Part shown: positions 33,739 through 60,596 of the stretch, piece after piece | Numbering within the stretch: the first letter of the stretch is position 1 | Layout of the letters: each line of letters opens with the position of its first letter | DNA from: Tilletiopsis washingtonensis | Lineage: Eukaryota > Basidiomycota > Exobasidiomycetes > Entylomatales | Length of the DNA stretch: 64,000 bases | Direction of reading: 5' to 3' | NCBI RefSeq assembly: GCF_003144115.1 | Contig: NW_020312004.1 | Span: forward strand, 456,506 to 520,505 | Made by a program: the position numbers and the translations under genes | The notes under the pieces: generated by a model | What the model saw: only the letters and a program-made list of their open reading frames with translations | Told to the model about the DNA's origin: nothing | Databases searched by the model: none

Positions 33739-34210
33739 ATGGTGGGTCGCTGCTCCATGCTGCATCTTGCACTTGCTCTGATGCAGACGCGGCCTTAGCC
33801 AGCCGACCGCACGCCCAAACGCGAGCCAGGAGCAGGCGCCAGCACGGCCGCCAAGCCGGCAAAGAAGCGCAAGACGGAGAGCTGGACGCCTGGTGCGTGG
33901 CCCAGCCCGCCTGCGAGAGACGGCGTCGCTGAAGACGCACCGGCAGAGGAGGAGCTCATGCTGGTCCGTGCCGTCATCGACTTGGCGCTCAGCAACATCC
34001 CTGCGCTCGTGCGTGCGCCGCGTCTGCCTGCGTACGACGCTGACGGTGATCATCCAGCACGAAGCCTCGGGCCTCAAGGGACGGCGCGGCAACTCTTCCG
34101 TGAGGACGGCGGGTAGCGATGTGGTCCGCGGCACGCTCACGCCCCGCGCCCAGGTGAACATGAAGCTGCGCAACCTGCTCAGCCGCTTCGAGAAGTCGGG
34201 CAAGCTCTGA
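33739..34210 (+). CDS. Myb/SANT-like mini-protein A (tandem pair)
   Basis: Family not recognised; the closest pattern is a degenerate Myb/SANT three-helix domain. Exons 33739-33741 (ATG alone), 33799-33892, 33935-34008, 34058-34099 and 34154-34210 give 89 residues. Residues 1-30 are basic (KRE, KPAKKRKT). The domain reads SWTPDAPAEEELMLVRAVID, LALSNIPAL, HEASGLKGRRGNSS, then VNMKLRNLLSRFEKSGKL at the C-terminus. A Trp at helix 1, acidic residues, a Leu/Val-Ala stretch, GLKGR and a basic last helix match a Myb-like layout, and the basic leader suggests a nuclear or DNA-bound protein. Exon 1 ends right after ATG (ATG|GTGGGT...CCTTAG|CCA). Mini-protein B just downstream has the same exon layout, phases and a 42-base fourth exon, so the two are tandem duplicates. 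Confidence 0.65.
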
Positions 34211-34524
34211 GCCGCCTGAGCCGCAAGAGACATGTGCCGTCGACGAAGCGCGTACAGGCAGCTCCTGCAATGAACAGCGATGCCGGTGTGCTGCCCCCTG
34301 CGAAGGCACCGCCGTGTGTGCTGGCCGGCTCTGATGAGCCCATGACTGGCCAGCCTCTGCATTCATCACGGAGGTGGGGCCGCTGGTCTGTGCACCCCGT
34401 CCGCTTCGCCCTTCGATTGATTGATTCGCTGATAGCGCCAGGTGATGAGGCTCTCCTCTGCCTCCGCCGCTGCCGCCGCTGCCGCCGCTTTGTCAGACAC
34501 CACATCCATCGCTCCCTCACAATC
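34211..34524. other. Spacer between the tandem mini-genes
   Basis: 314 bases, presumably the terminator of A and promoter of B. Contains a short GATTGATTGATT run near 34416 and a GCCGCTGCCGCC run near 34465. No gene seen. Confidence 0.5.
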
Positions 34525-35050
34525 ATGGTAACTGAGCTGTTCGTGCGAGTGTTGCAGGCGCTGAGGCTACGTCCAGCCTGCACAGCGAACGGCCAAGCAC
34601 GAGACGACGGAGGAGGAGAAGGCGCCGCGGGCGAAACCCACCAAGCCCAAGAAGCCCGCCGAGTTCTGGACGCCGGGTGAGTCGGTGCGGCGCAGCGCCT
34701 CACACGCATAACGCTGAGACACGGCGCAGAGGACGAGCTCGCGCTGGTGCGGGCGCTCTTCGAGCTGGGCCTCAGCAGCATCCCGCTCCTGGTGCGTGTG
34801 CGTCGGTGTGTGGTGCCCCCTTCGCCGCTGCTGACTCGTGCACGGCAGCACGAGCGCTCCGGCCTCAAGGGCAAGAAGACGAATCCGGGCGTGAGTGCGC
34901 TCGATCAAGCGCGTGATGGCTCGCTGAGGGTCGTCGCAGGTGAACTACAGGCTGCGTGCTCTGCTCAAACGTTACGAGAAGGACGGTTCTTTGAGAGGCA
35001 CGTCAGGTCGGCTGCTCAAGCTCGACTGCGCAATGGGCGAATGGACCTGA
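34525..35050 (+). CDS. Myb/SANT-like mini-protein B (tandem pair)
   Basis: Paralogue of mini-protein A. Exons 34525-34527 (ATG alone), 34586-34676, 34730-34791, 34849-34890 and 34940-35050 give 102 residues. The leader is charged and Lys/Pro-rich (KPTKPKKPAE). The domain reads FWTPEDELALVRALFELG, LSSIPLL, HERSGLKGKKTNPG and VNYRLRALLKRYEKDGS, with a longer C-terminal tail ending GEWT. It is closer to a normal Myb/SANT pattern than A (WTPEDELALV). Introns sit at the same codons and phases as in A: after ATG, inside the WTP(G) codon, after the LL/AL of helix 2, and before VN. Identity to A is clear over about 55 residues. Function unknown. Confidence 0.65.
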
Positions 35051-54494: not shown

Positions 54495-55405
54495 TTCAGA
54501 CCATTGTGATTGTGCGCTCTGACCCTCGCTCGGGGCAATGGATGCTGGTGACAGGGGCAGCCGGCGCGGACAGACGGCGCGACATGGAGCAGCAGCAGCG
54601 TCACAAGGGGGCAGGACGCTTGCATCAAGCAGCCAGATGCATGCCACAAGCAGCAGGAGACATGCTGCACCAGCCTTGCCACGTGACGGGCTTGCAGCAA
54701 GATGCAGGGCATGCTTGTCACTCAGCTTGTTGAGGATACCAAGTGTTGCACTGCAGTTGCAGCTGAGCAGCAGCAAGAACAGGTGCAGCAGAAATGTGCT
54801 GCTTACCTCAGTAAGGCCGCTAATGCGCAGCAGAAGCTGGGTAGTCACCAGCCAGACATGCGCCAGAGGTAGGTTGATGTGCAAAAGACAAAGGTTGCCA
54901 CCAATGCTGCACAGATTTCCAAGGACAGTCTGTGAATTGCTGCATGCCAGGCGCAGCAGGACAAGGTCAACAGCAAGCAGGCCAACTGCAGCAGGCGGCA
55001 GATGCTGTGCAATGTGCATCAGAACAAGGCGGGGGAGAGGCCTGATGTGCTGCTGCTAGAGTTAAAGCGTGTGCCAAGAAGTTCAACAATGCTGCATTGC
55101 ACCTTGGTGCGGCCTGCGGGCAATTTGACTGCAATGCAGACACACTTGGCTCTGTGCAGCTCAACATTGCCAATGAGTGGCTTGCCTTTGAGGTTGAGAT
55201 CAAGTCATGGGCCAAGATAGCACTGCATGAGGAAGCCAAAGTCAGGCTCAGTACTGCCTGGCTGTAGGAGCGCAACAAGGCAGCCATTGGCACAAGCAAG
55301 ACACCTGTGGACCCTTGCAAGTAGGCCACTAGCAATGCTAGGGCGCCAATGTTGCATTGCTTGCGCAAGGCATGCGCAAATGCAAGACGGAGGATGCAGT
55401 TTGCA
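54495..55405. other. Decayed, compositionally foreign DNA left of the LTR element
   Basis: From about 54590 the GC content falls and the codon texture of the neighbouring genes disappears; CAG/GCA/TGC-rich, A/T-richer DNA continues to the LTR. Short open frames on both strands have no recognisable domain. It may be an old, decayed repeat or gene remnant; I could not name a family. Confidence 0.5.
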
Positions 55406-55868
55406 TGTCATGAACTGAGCGGAAGATTGCCTACAGAACCCTCTGGAACCCCGCGGAACTCTATAGATCCTCAGAGAACCCTCTGGAACCCCATGGAACG
55501 TCCTAGAACTCTACGGAACCTGACAGAAGCGTACGGAACTGTGCAGAAGGTTACAGATCCTTACAGATCTGCCTGGAACATTCTACCATGTTCCATCTGT
55601 TTCCACTACCTTCCATCCCCTTCCATGAGCTTCCCTCACAGAACACTGTAGAACCCGCATTGCGTCTTCCCTGCTCTGCCCTCTAAGGTATAGAAGGAGG
55701 GCCTCCCCCACTCCCACATGTAGATAGTCAGTTCTGATCTTGCATTGTCACACCCTCCTCTCTGGCAAGGGTCTAGGTTCTTGACTAGGCTTCCAGAGCT
55801 TACTCAGATCCTGCGTGGCTGCCTGCCAGACTCCTGTTGCCTTCCTCCTGGGCCTTGCCCACGTGACA
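55406..55868 (+). repeat. 5' LTR of the chromovirus
   Basis: Begins TGTCATGAAC and ends CACGTGACA; 463 bases, aligned without gaps to the 3' LTR. Contains repeated AACCCTCTGGAACC-type units and a TATA-like region about 150 bases before its end. Confidence 0.93.
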
Positions 55869-56429
55869 GAAGATTAGAACTCCCTCTGGCGCTCAGCCAC
55901 ACCCGGACTCAGCGGTGTATCTACGGAAAAAGCGAATCTACGGACAGCCCGGCGCCGTGGGAAACCAGTGACCTCTGCCATAGGTGGTATCTGCAGCCCT
56001 GCCACTGCGAAGCTCTCCTGGGGAACTGCAGCGTGCGGAGGGGCCTGAAGGCTTGCTGAAGCTACTGGAGTCCTAGGCACCCCAGGCAGCGGAGCGTGAG
56101 CGCAGGCTTCCTTAGCTAAAAGCTTCCTGACCCACACAGGCAGGGAGGCCTCAGAGGCCAGCCGGGCAACAGCCCACCTGACCTGTAGGGAAGCACCACT
56201 CCCCGGACAACTCAAGCAACTCAAGGAACACTCTACGCTGCGCACGCTCTGCGCTTCTCTACGCCGCGCACACCACATCCTCTACGTTGCTCTACGTCAT
56301 CCTCGCTTCTACGTGAAATCCTCAGTGCTCTTCCACGTCATCTGCGCTTCTCAGCGCTTCCAGCCACTTCCAGTCTGCGCAGCAAGTATCCTCAAGGCTT
56401 CTGCGCTTCCAGCACCATCCAGTTGGCGC

Positions 56430-56700
56430 TTCCACGCGCTTCCAGTCACTCCTAGGCTGCGCAGCATAAGCATCAGCCCCCTGCGCCTCTAGGAGAATCC
56501 AGTCTGCGCTTCCACGCGCTTCCAGCACCATCAAGTCAGCCTTTCCACAGGCTTCCAGCCTAGGCTGCGCAGCATTACCATCAGCCCCCTGCGTCTCTAG
56601 GAGAATCCAGTCTGCGCTTCCACGCGCTTCCAGCAACATCAAGTCAGCCTTTCCACAGGCTTCCAGCCTAGTCTGCACGGCATAACCATCAGCCCCCCGT
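56430..56700 (+). repeat. Tandem repeats (period about 108 bp) in the element's leader
   Basis: The unit starting TCTGCGCTTCCACGCGCTTC at 56503 recurs at 56611; partial, more diverged copies lie on both sides. The wider leader 56330-57050 is full of the shorter motif GCTTCCAG. This is non-coding DNA between the 5' LTR and the gag part. Confidence 0.8.
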
Positions 56701-57217
56701 GCGTCTGGGAAATCTCCAGCCAGGACTTCCACGTCCTTCCAGCAACCTCCAGCCAGCGCAACAGCGCTTCCAGTCACTTCTAGACTGTGCAGCAACACCA
56801 TCAGCCCCCTGCACTTCTAGAAGCTTCCAGTCAGCGCTGCGGCGCTTCCAGTACCTCCAGACAGCGCAGAAAGCGCTTCCAGCATCATCAAGTCAGCGCT
56901 TGGTGCCTTCTAGGCCCTTCCTGGCCTGCAGACCTTCTCAGGGTTTCTGCAGGTAGCGCTTCCAGCAAATCCTAGTCTGCGCCTGGTGCTCTTCCAGCAG
57001 CTTCCTGGCCTACAGAAGCTTCTGCAGTCTTCTCTAGGCGGCGCCTCCAGCAAGGCCCCAAAAAGGTATAAAACCAGGGCCTCTCCAGCACCTCCAGATC
57101 CCCGAAAAAAGCAACAACCAACCAAGAACCAAGTCAAGGATCCTCTCTGCGTCTCTCTGGCCTCAAGAAACCTCTCTGCGCCTCTCTGGCCACTCTCAGC
57201 ACCTCCAGTCAAGAAAC

Positions 57218-58309
57218 ATGTCCGGCAACAACGTCCAGATGAACACCATGGAACAGCTCTCTCTGCAGCTTGGCAACATGTCTGCCATGATGCAGCAGAT
57301 GCAGCAAGCTCTTGACCAGCAGCAGCATGAGCTACAGGCCCAGGCCCAGCTCCTGCAGCAAGCGCAGCAAGTCCAGGCTCAAGCCCAGCCTGCGCCTCAA
57401 GTAATCCAGGTCCCCGTCCAGGCCCCTGCTCAGGCACCAACCTCTGCGGCCAAAGCCCTTGGCAAGGCTCTCCAGAAGCCTCCTACCTACGACGGAAAGA
57501 ACAGGAAGGAGGCCCAGACGTTCATTGCGCACCTCAAGCACTATATCAACGGAAATCCGGAAACCTTCCTCACAGATGACGCCAAGATCACATTTGCGGT
57601 GTCATATCTCCGCGACGCCGCCTTCAAGTGGGTGGAGCCTCATCTCCTCAAGGGCTCCAGCCCCCTACTCCATGACTTCCAGCTCTTCCTAGATGAGCTT
57701 CTGCGCAATCTGGGAGATCCGGACCGCACCAGGACCCTCACTAAGGAACTTCAGGCCCTCAAGCAAGTAGGATCTGCGGCGCACTACACCTCTCAGTTCT
57801 ACCAGGTCTCTTCCTTCCTGGGATGGAATGATGAGGCTCTGCGCGGGCAGTACTACACTGGCCTCAAGCCTGAGGTAAAGGATGCGCTTGCGTAGGCTTC
57901 TGAGGACCCTCAGACCCTCAAGGACCTCTCAGACCTTGCCATCAAGCTGGACAACCGCCTCTACGACCGCTGTATGGACAAGTTTGGCCCCAACAGCCGT
58001 CGTCAGGCATTCCAGGCCCCCCAGGCCTTCCAGAAAGCGACGCAGCGTACGTACAGGGCCCCCAATCATGGCCCTGCTCCCATGGATCTTGATTCTACGG
58101 CCACGCGCAAGTTCAAGCCACTCACAGACGCCGAGAAGAAGCACCGGCGTGAGAACAACCTCTGCATGTACTGCGGCAAGGCTGGCCACATGGCTGCACA
58201 GTGCAACCTCAAGAACAACAACCCCAGGAACAGCCGTCCTCCTGCGCGTATCCAGGCCACTATCCTCCCTGAAGGAGACTTTGAGCTGTCAAAAAATGCA
58301 GAGGCCTAG
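57218..58309 (+). mobile_element. Gag-like part of the chromovirus with zinc knuckle
   Basis: Begins with MSGNNVQMNTMEQLSLQ and a Gln-rich coiled segment, then a retrotransposon gag core (PPTYDGKNRKEAQTF; YLRDAAFKWVEPHL; GSAAHYTSQFYQV) and a CCHC knuckle (CMYCGKAGHMAAQC). Fossil; not intact. Confidence 0.88.
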
Positions 58310-58416
58310 AGCAAAAGATTAGTCACCCCTCTCTAGGCCAAGATTCCGGGTGCCACATCAACTCTCAACCAGTTGGCCCCCTGTATCTGTCAGCCAGCCT
58401 CGCTTCAGAACCCCTC

Positions 58417-59553
58417 TTGCTCCCTGTCGACCTCCTAGGACTCCTCAAGCCACTGCCCATCCCAAAGGCGCCCTGGCAGTCCCTATCCATGGACCACATC
58501 ACAGACCTGCCCAAATCAGGCGGATACAACGCCATCCTAGCTGTAGTGGACCGTCTCACCAAGGAAGCGCACTTCATACCGGCCAGGAAAAGTGACTCTG
58601 CGCAAGTCCTAGCCCAACAGTTCCTGGAGAACATCTTCCGCCTCCACGGCTTGCCCTCAGACATAGTCTCAGACCGTGGGCCCACCTTCACCTCCAAGTG
58701 GTGGAAAGCCTTCCTCAGCAACCTCAAGGTCCAGCCTAACCTCTCTACGGCGTTTCATCCTCAAAGTGACGGCCAAACAGAGCAGGTCAATCAGTCCATT
58801 GAGCAACATCTACGGATTTTCTGCGACCACCTCCAGGACAACTGGCAAGCGCTGCTCCCACTTGCTGAGCATGCGTACAACAGCACCTTCCACTCAAGCA
58901 TAGGGATGACTCCTTTCTATGCCAACCGTGGCTACCATCCCCGGCTCTCAATCACGCTTCAAGAGACCACAGTGCCATCTGCCACTGAGCAGCTGCGCCA
59001 TCTACAGGCGGTTCATCAACAAGCACAGGCCAACATCCAGCGCGCACAAGAACAGCAAGTCTACTGGGCAAACAAGAAGCGTCAAGACGCCCCTGACTTC
59101 AAGATAGGAGACCAAGTATGGCTCCTCCGCACCAACATCACCACCACACAACCAAGCAGCAAATTGGACGCCAAGCGCCTGGGCCCATTCCCCATAGAAG
59201 CAAAGATTGGGGACCGCGCATACCGCCTCACTCTGCCACCTACCATGCACATCCATCCGGTCTTCCACGTCTCTCTCCTTGAGCGTCACAAGCCAAACAC
59301 GCTCCCATCACGGCGCATCAATCCTCCGCCACCACCTGTGGTCAACAGTGATGGCACAGAGTCCTACGTGGTAGAGAAAATCCTGGACTCCCGGCGCTAC
59401 GGACAAGGACGCCGCAAGTACCTGGAATACTTTGTCCACTGGGAAGGCTATCCCATCTCGGACAGGTCCTGGATCCCAGCATCAGAGCTGGACCCTTCAA
59501 GCTCCCTGGTCAAGAGCTATCACCGGCGCTATCCCCACCGTCCAGGGCCCTAA
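58417..59553 (+). mobile_element. Integrase core and chromodomain part of the chromovirus
   Basis: Integrase motifs SMDHITDLP, IVSDRGPTFTSKWW and HPQSDGQTEQVNQ supply the DDE pattern. A GPFPIEAKIG region and a C-terminal chromodomain (YVVEKILDSR, YFVHWEGYP, SWIPASEL) follow. The upstream pol parts are not recognisable. Confidence 0.9.
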
Positions 59554-59590
59554 CCGCGCTCATCGAACAAGCGCTTACACCCGGGGGTAC

Positions 59591-60053
59591 TGTCATGAAC
59601 CAAGCGGCAGATTGCCTACAGAACCCTCTGGAACCCTGCGTAACTCCATGGATCCTCAGAGAACCCTCTGGAACCCCATGGAACGTCCTAGAACTCTACA
59701 GAACCTGACAGAAGCGTACAGGACTGTGCAGAAGGTTACATAACCTTACAGATCCGCCTGGAACATTCTACCAGGTTCCATCTGTTTCCACTACCTTCCA
59801 TCCCCTTCCATGAGCTTCCCTCACAGAACACTGTAGAACCTGCGTTGCGTCTTCCCTGCTCTGCCCTCTAAGGTATATAAGGAGGGCCTCCCCCACTCCC
59901 ACATGTAGATAGTCAGTTCTGATCTTGCATTGTCACACCCTCCTCTCCGGCAAGGGTCTAGGTTCTTGACTAGGCTTCCAGAGCTTACTCAGATCCTGCG
60001 TGGCTGCCTGCCAGACTCCTGTTGCCTTCCTCCTGGGCCTTGCCCACGTGACA
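59591..60053 (+). repeat. 3' LTR of the chromovirus
   Basis: 463 bases, same ends as the 5' LTR, with a clean TATATAAG box near 59873. Preceded by a purine-poor stretch and ACCCGGGGGTAC. Its right end abuts an unrelated ORF stub. Confidence 0.93.
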
Positions 60054-60505: not shown

Positions 60506-60596
60506 TGACACCAGTGGGATTTGAACCCACGCCCCGAAGGACAAGAGCCGGACGGTAGCCTTAATCTTGCATCTTAGACCACTCGATCATAGTGCC
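60506..60596 (-). tRNA. tRNA-Leu (anticodon AAG) with an 11-nt intron
   Basis: Read on the minus strand: acceptor GGCACTA pairs with TGGTGTC (with G-U pairs) and discriminator A; D arm ATC...GAT with GAGTGGTCTAA loop (A box); anticodon stem CAAGA/TCTTG; loop TTAAGG, an 11-base intron (CTACCGTCCGG) after position 37, then C38; long variable arm TCCTTCGGGGC as in class II tRNAs; T arm GTGGG/CCCAC with loop TTCAAAT (B box). The anticodon AAG reads CUU/CUC Leu codons. Confidence 0.93.

Follow-up and report, generated by a model that had tools for sequence, protein, structure and literature searches.

The window, by which we mean the whole 64 kb stretch of DNA analysed (contig C7, positions 456506-520505, from the 18.7 Mb Tilletiopsis washingtonensis genome in 32 contigs), has a GC content of 56-74% in 2-kb bins and carries at 33739..35050 two neighbouring small genes. 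Each of them, hereafter gene 1 and gene 2, is composed of five exons that form an open coding sequence after predicted splicing (Table 1). All eight introns are of the GT..AG type and 49-57 nt long, and they interrupt the two genes at matching positions in phases 0, 1, 0 and 0, the first directly after ATG. Exon 3 (62 nt) and exon 4 (42 nt) have the same length in both. This is the architecture described in the first-pass annotation, which had pointed to introns at the same four places and to an exon 4 of 42 bases; the protein lengths of 89 and 102 residues given there were corrected on recount to 85 and 105. The roughly 55 alignable residues that it reported correspond to an ungapped stretch of 54, in which 34 residues, counted by eye, are identical. 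Splicing of both genes in this manner is predicted from the consistency of the gene models.

Table 1. Exons of the gene pair (window coordinates) and further family members (contig coordinates).
Feature	Position	Strand	Remarks
Gene 1 exon 1	33739..33741	+	ATG alone, followed by a 57-nt intron
Gene 1 exon 2	33799..33892	+	Basic N-terminal tail with KKRK, ends at SWTP
Gene 1 exon 3 (62 nt)	33947..34008	+	Putative helix 1 and start of helix 2, EEELMLVRAVIDLALSNIPAL; 21/21 in P0005
Gene 1 exon 4 (42 nt)	34058..34099	+	HEASGLKGRRGNSS turn; 14/14 in P0004
Gene 1 exon 5	34154..34210	+	VNMKLRNLLSRFEKSGKL, the basic last segment, then stop; 18/18 in P0004
Gene 2 exon 1	34525..34527	+	ATG alone, followed by a 49-nt intron
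Gene 2 exon 2	34577..34676	+	Charged, net basic tail, ends at FWTP
Gene 2 exon 3 (62 nt)	34730..34791	+	Putative helix 1 and start of helix 2
Gene 2 exon 4 (42 nt)	34849..34890	+	HERSGLKGKKTNPG turn
Gene 2 exon 5	34940..35050	+	Basic last segment and 18-residue extension
g3, third paralog	C7:450571-451007 (L006)		89 residues; 39 kb upstream of the pair, beyond the window
c11a	C11:67533-68114	-	Hand-made model
c11b	C11:68389-68967	-	Hand-made model
c11c	C11:69464-70031	+	Hand-made model
c11d	C11:70381-70870	+	Hand-made model
c20	C20, ~69.1 kb (L017)	+	Domain opens a longer protein; partial, hand-made model

GC content at third codon positions reaches 0.85 in gene 1 and 0.84 in gene 2, compared to 0.56 and 0.55 at positions 1 and 2. 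The three pairs of C7 paralogs show dN/dS values of 0.39, 0.47 and 0.44 (NG86), which are rough estimates from 54 codons, all below 1. Nucleotide comparison of the two genes showed exon 3 as the best kept segment (77% identity, z 5.0 against shuffled sequences), followed by exon 4 (z 2.9), intron 2 (z 2.8), exon 2 (z 2.3), intron 3 (z 1.7) and exon 5 (z 1.6), while introns 1 and 4 stay at the level of shuffles (z 0.7 and 0.2). Because intron 2 is as similar as exons 2 and 4, and exon 5 is low, this comparison by itself does not separate exons from introns.

For this reason unspliced ORFs predicted from public metagenomes and aligned to the gene models are more informative. Sequence P0004 is identical to gene 1 in exons 4 and 5, with 6/15 matches in intron 3 and 17/18 in intron 4. 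In P0005, exon 3 is fully retained and exon 4 nearly so (13/14), in contrast to introns 1-3 (7/17, 6/15 and 6/16) and the upstream region (30/52); intron 4 gives 5/5. Exon 2 of the same sequence scored 6/31 in the scripted frame because frames slip, and 27/28 when the matching frame was followed by eye. The paralog g3 has a comparable relative, P0002, with 32/34 matches in exon 2, 11/16 in intron 1 and 30/40 upstream, and with a 35-residue exon 3 that appears identical by eye. Near-identity of P0001 extends through exons and introns alike, making it uninformative on exon boundaries. As judged from these alignments, introns 1-3 of gene 1 diverge around conserved exons, whereas intron 4 does not.

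These data bear on the alternative that the genes are decaying or non-coding copies whose exons are open by chance. Such a view could draw on the fact that splicing of gene 1 and gene 2 is predicted from sequence and on the C-terminus of gene 2, for which P0001 uses another frame. It is nevertheless very improbable in view of the conserved phases, dN/dS values under 0.5 and relatives that keep exons beside diverged introns.

Iterated searches, in which each new member served as the next query, disclosed at least eight genes of the family in T. washingtonensis, three on C7, four on C11 and one on C20, in agreement with the earlier suspicion that further members exist. The models on C11 and C20 were made by hand and are less certain than those on C7, and the c11c protein was derived by eye. 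A hand-made consensus and further C11 sequences used as genome queries yielded no additional member. Four candidate sites were rejected as chance matches on inspection of their surroundings by eye: C29:74380 (AAA ATPase-like), C18:151273 (acyl-CoA oxidase-like), and C4:800666 and C19:252692 (unrelated-looking coding sequence). Weak matches at C17:349203 (E 0.4) and C11:127038 (E 1.7) were left out of the count.

The third C7 paralog, g3, is interrupted by introns directly behind ATG, inside the codon that follows WTK, and ahead of the last helix, which are three of the four positions found in the pair, while a single 104-nt exon replaces exons 3 and 4 (62 + 42). Shared positions and the fused exon together indicate that the architecture of the pair is more than chance. 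Certain intron positions are likewise common to different clusters and, in the models, join them. A phase 0 intron directly before the last helix occupies the same alignment column in gene 1, gene 2, g3, c11a and c11b; a phase 2 intron inside the last helix is present in all four C11 genes; and a phase 1 intron after P-G-L occurs in c11c and, one column off, in c20. The four C11 members are confined to 3.3 kb (C11:67533-70870; L039 5534-6968 and 7465-8871). They form two tandem pairs in head-to-head orientation, and about 500 bases lie between the middle two, so that the promoter region of these may be common.

The seven complete members are 83-118 aa long and consist of one domain, with no effector region. 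Six of the eight end soon after the last helix, the exceptions being gene 2, with its extension, and c20, which continues. The c20 protein begins with MPPK, followed by an intron, and a WTSDQN domain, and proceeds into a K/E-rich region; the family domain can thus also form the start of a larger protein. The extension of gene 2 (18 residues; window 34994-35050) is missing from other members on C7 and C11, and in the near-identical P0001 the C-terminus is in a different frame relative to exon 4. These two features suggest that the extension is probably private to gene 2, the end of which seems, from this comparison, to vary between strains. With SGRLLKL it resembles the last residues of a linker-histone globular domain; we rejected a relationship of this kind as the motif sits in the unshared extension.

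To describe the protein, we used an alignment of the eight members, with gene 2 truncated at residue 87 and c20 represented by a partial sequence of 79 residues; c11b was stripped of a 20-residue insert for the profile-profile (hhalign) comparison that included the Vanrija domains, for charge analysis and for one of the genome queries. The common plan comprises a basic tail, a W-T-x-E/D-E/Q-like helix (W-D in c11a) with the tryptophan invariant in all eight, a turn of the P-G-L or S-G-L-K-G type, and a last helix with K/R-L/I. Clusters resembling nuclear localisation signals (KKRK, PKRK, KKPK) are located in the tails, and the isoelectric point of the sequences as used is 9.3-10.5. In every member, acidic residues prevail over basic ones in the first 18 positions of the domain, and basic over acidic ones in the last segment. 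Basic (K+R) and acidic (D+E) residues among the final 26 (22 in c20; extension of gene 2 excluded) number 8/1 in gene 1, 8/2 in gene 2, 6/1 in g3, 8/2 in c11a, 6/1 in c11b, 5/1 in c11c, 7/1 in c11d and 3/0 in c20.

A basic third helix characterizes Myb domains of the DNA-binding type, as opposed to the histone-binding SANT type, and by this measure all eight members resemble the former. The core of a Myb domain is built by regularly spaced aromatic residues, tryptophans, in helices 1, 2 and 3. Here the helix-1 tryptophan is present in 8/8 members and none has a tryptophan at the aligned core positions of helices 2 and 3; the tryptophan core of Myb domains is therefore lacking, only its first residue being kept.

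Search against Pfam gave for Myb_DNA-binding (PF00249) a best score of 15.1 bits, compared to the curated cut-off of 24.4, and a best E-value of 0.026. Three of the eight members match this family at E <= 10, none reaches the cut-off, and gene 2 has no Pfam match. For single members, matches to unrelated families are equally good or better, although below significance (Dppa2_A, 0.019; GeBP-like_DBD, 0.047), and the two weak NCBIfam matches are both to enzymes (E 0.046 and 0.23). In a profile search against PDB, Myb or SANT domains make up six of the eight matches obtained at E <= 10 with the eight-member alignment, the best two (E 0.012 and 0.049) being the ADA2-type SANT domains 1x41 and 2elk and the other four ranging from 0.26 to 1.7. 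Three of the four matches of the C7 genes alone are also Myb/SANT, and the sole match of gene 2 alone is tryptophan synthase (E 1.2).

Among 5.8 billion protein sequences, the same alignment found P0008, annotated as a "Myb-like domain-containing protein" of Vanrija albida (E 1.2e-6), and, weakly (E 0.19), P0009, which bears a real PF00249 domain. P0004 and P0003, the latter being the window's own sequence, were also returned, together with P0006 and P0007, by eye unspliced frames of c11b and c20 from the same or a very close organism. Comparison with P0008 by hhalign gave a probability of 85.8 over 55 columns, which fall in its second domain and run from the tail as far as NSAIHMRIKTLL.

As a reference for canonical Myb/SANT domains we used eight of the 15 PF00249 matches in the same genome, after dropping seven because of internal stops, partial length or scores below the cut-off. 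Eleven of the 15 exceed the cut-off alone and two more do so with neighbours, several being located in one protein. The family alignment alone scored 24.6 against this profile in local mode, and none of 200 column shuffles exceeded 14.1. Inclusion of the two Vanrija domains raised the local score to 27.0 (0/100 shuffles above 14.6), and the global one was 23.1 (0/100 above 11.5; probability 20.8). A circular-shift control, half of it reversed, reached 25.2 compared to the real 24.6, and was set aside because unreversed shifts keep the signal. Local alignments comprise helix 1 and part of helix 2, while helix 3 is matched only in the forced global mode and by the Vanrija repeat. AlphaFold2 gave no reliable model of P0008: mean pLDDT was 48.8 for the sequence alone, and 63.2, in the form of two implausibly long helices, when five homologues were supplied as an alignment.

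An alternative to be weighed here is a different fold that is likewise small, basic and helical, such as a winged helix, and in which resemblance to Myb is limited to the surroundings of WTPEE. It is in line with good alignment being restricted to helix 1 and the first part of helix 2, and with the mixed nature of the weak Pfam matches. We hold it to be improbable, since the global profile comparison holds register through helix 3 and no linker-histone or named winged-helix family occurs among the five Pfam families matched by members.

Significant profile similarity thus supports membership in the Myb/SANT superfamily, albeit a remote one. Consequently, the Myb-like character proposed in the first-pass annotation stands as far as profiles are concerned (Vanrija, PDB, hhalign), and not with respect to the Pfam cut-off and to the tryptophans, only the first of which is kept. 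The same division applies to the profile search against Myb/SANT folds that it had suggested, in which PDB matches and hhalign scores above all shuffles contrast with Pfam scores below threshold. Considering the weak Pfam score, local alignment that stops in helix 2 and the lost tryptophans, we call the family Myb/SANT-like and do not assign it to PF00249. It carries no family label of its own and forms a divergent branch of a very large known superfamily, with local expansion. Literature on small fungal Myb families found by search, PMC3998117 and PMC12730594 included, was not recognisably about this family.

The closest known protein, and the only homologue with a named source, is Q8F55_002471 of V. 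albida (P0008, 169 aa), from Tremellomycetes, another class of Basidiomycota. It shares with gene 1 the MPADRT start and with the family a basic tail, domain starts WTPEEE and WTSDED, and the NSAIHMRIKTLL segment, which resembles NSSVNMKLRNLL. It differs in having two domains instead of one, a longer linker, and helix-2 tryptophans (MW, IW) that are absent in the family; used as a query, it had no match in the T. washingtonensis genome. PF00249 domains have in common with the family a WTxEE-like start and, in the forced global alignment, the register through the basic third helix; in the family, the GL-type turn is longer, only the first tryptophan is kept, and scores stay below the cut-off in all eight members. 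The ADA2 SANT domains, the best profile matches among solved structures, resemble the family in helix 1 and at the beginning of helix 2. ADA2 itself is a large coactivator with several domains, whereas the family proteins consist of a tail and a domain, and the E-values do not go beyond 0.012 and 0.049.

We also considered that the domain may be a SANT-type binder, contacting proteins or histone tails in a chromatin complex and not DNA. The identity of the two best PDB matches and the loss of tryptophans in helices 2 and 3 speak for this reading. Histone-binding SANT domains, however, tend to be acidic in the last segment, which is net basic in 8/8 members here, and Pfam detected no other chromatin-complex domain in the eight proteins, so that we regard it as rather unlikely.

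In our opinion, the pair probably arose by tandem duplication in a family of eight or more mostly minimal Myb/SANT-like proteins that would act as small nuclear binders of DNA or chromatin. Nuclear location and DNA binding are suggested by the basic tails and the basic last helix, and the three-helix fold and mode of action are proposed by inference. With KKRK/PKRK/KKPK-type clusters in its tail, the protein would enter the nucleus, where the last helix would contact DNA, as in Myb repeats, and the basic tail could add unspecific contacts with DNA or histones. As most members have nothing beyond tail and domain, binding of DNA or nucleosomes through the last helix and the tail is the simplest reading. 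Lack of an effector domain would in turn suggest that the protein is a DNA-bound adaptor for larger partners, or a competitor of these.

The competitor branch of this explanation overlaps with a further alternative, in which single-domain Myb-like micro-proteins titrate away what larger Myb proteins bind as partners, a behaviour known from the single-repeat R3 MYBs of plants. Sizes of 83-118 aa with a single domain in the seven complete members would suit such a role, and larger Myb proteins exist in the genome, as indicated by its 15 PF00249 matches. By analogy it might apply here, yet the family differs strongly in sequence from the genome's canonical Myb domains and we find this alternative quite unlikely; a literature search on Myb micro-protein competitors gave no match.

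The finding delimits a defined and testable small family, the domain of which lies below the Pfam Myb cut-off and is broken up by exons in genomic DNA. It is of interest for annotation and as a test case for very small regulators. If the proteins bind DNA, transcription factors in such fungi are undercounted when Pfam hits are used, and regulators of very small size with a single domain would be a class worth seeking. A broader and more doubtful conjecture is that this lineage-expanded, minimal single-domain family, which automatic annotation would easily overlook because two to four tiny exons make up each domain, provides small chromatin architects or micro-protein regulators, and that comparable families are hidden in other intron-rich, compact fungal genomes.

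Finally, we addressed the surroundings of the genes. The Myb/SANT protein of PIF/Harbinger (Nuwa) transposons would be expected beside a transposase and terminal inverted repeats. In a sample of ten ORFs near the pair, near g3 and near the C11 cluster, no transposase family was detected, three of the ten having no Pfam match, and a transposon origin has no support in this sample. The scanned neighbours of the pair match housekeeping families: Fumble pantothenate kinase, V-ATPase subunit f, ChaC and OMP decarboxylase. In addition, a retrotransposon-like stretch of lower GC content, strongly C-rich, lies 23 kb downstream of the pair (window 55400-59750). It includes an ORF (58417-59553, plus strand) with integrase- and chromodomain-like sequence, as recognised by eye, flanked by similar repeats of 40-nt units at 55430-55520 and 59615-59705, and is probably a Ty3-type LTR retrotransposon. 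On the minus strand, Rfam, and not ARAGORN, detected a 91-base tRNA gene (window 60506-60596), which perhaps contains an intron.
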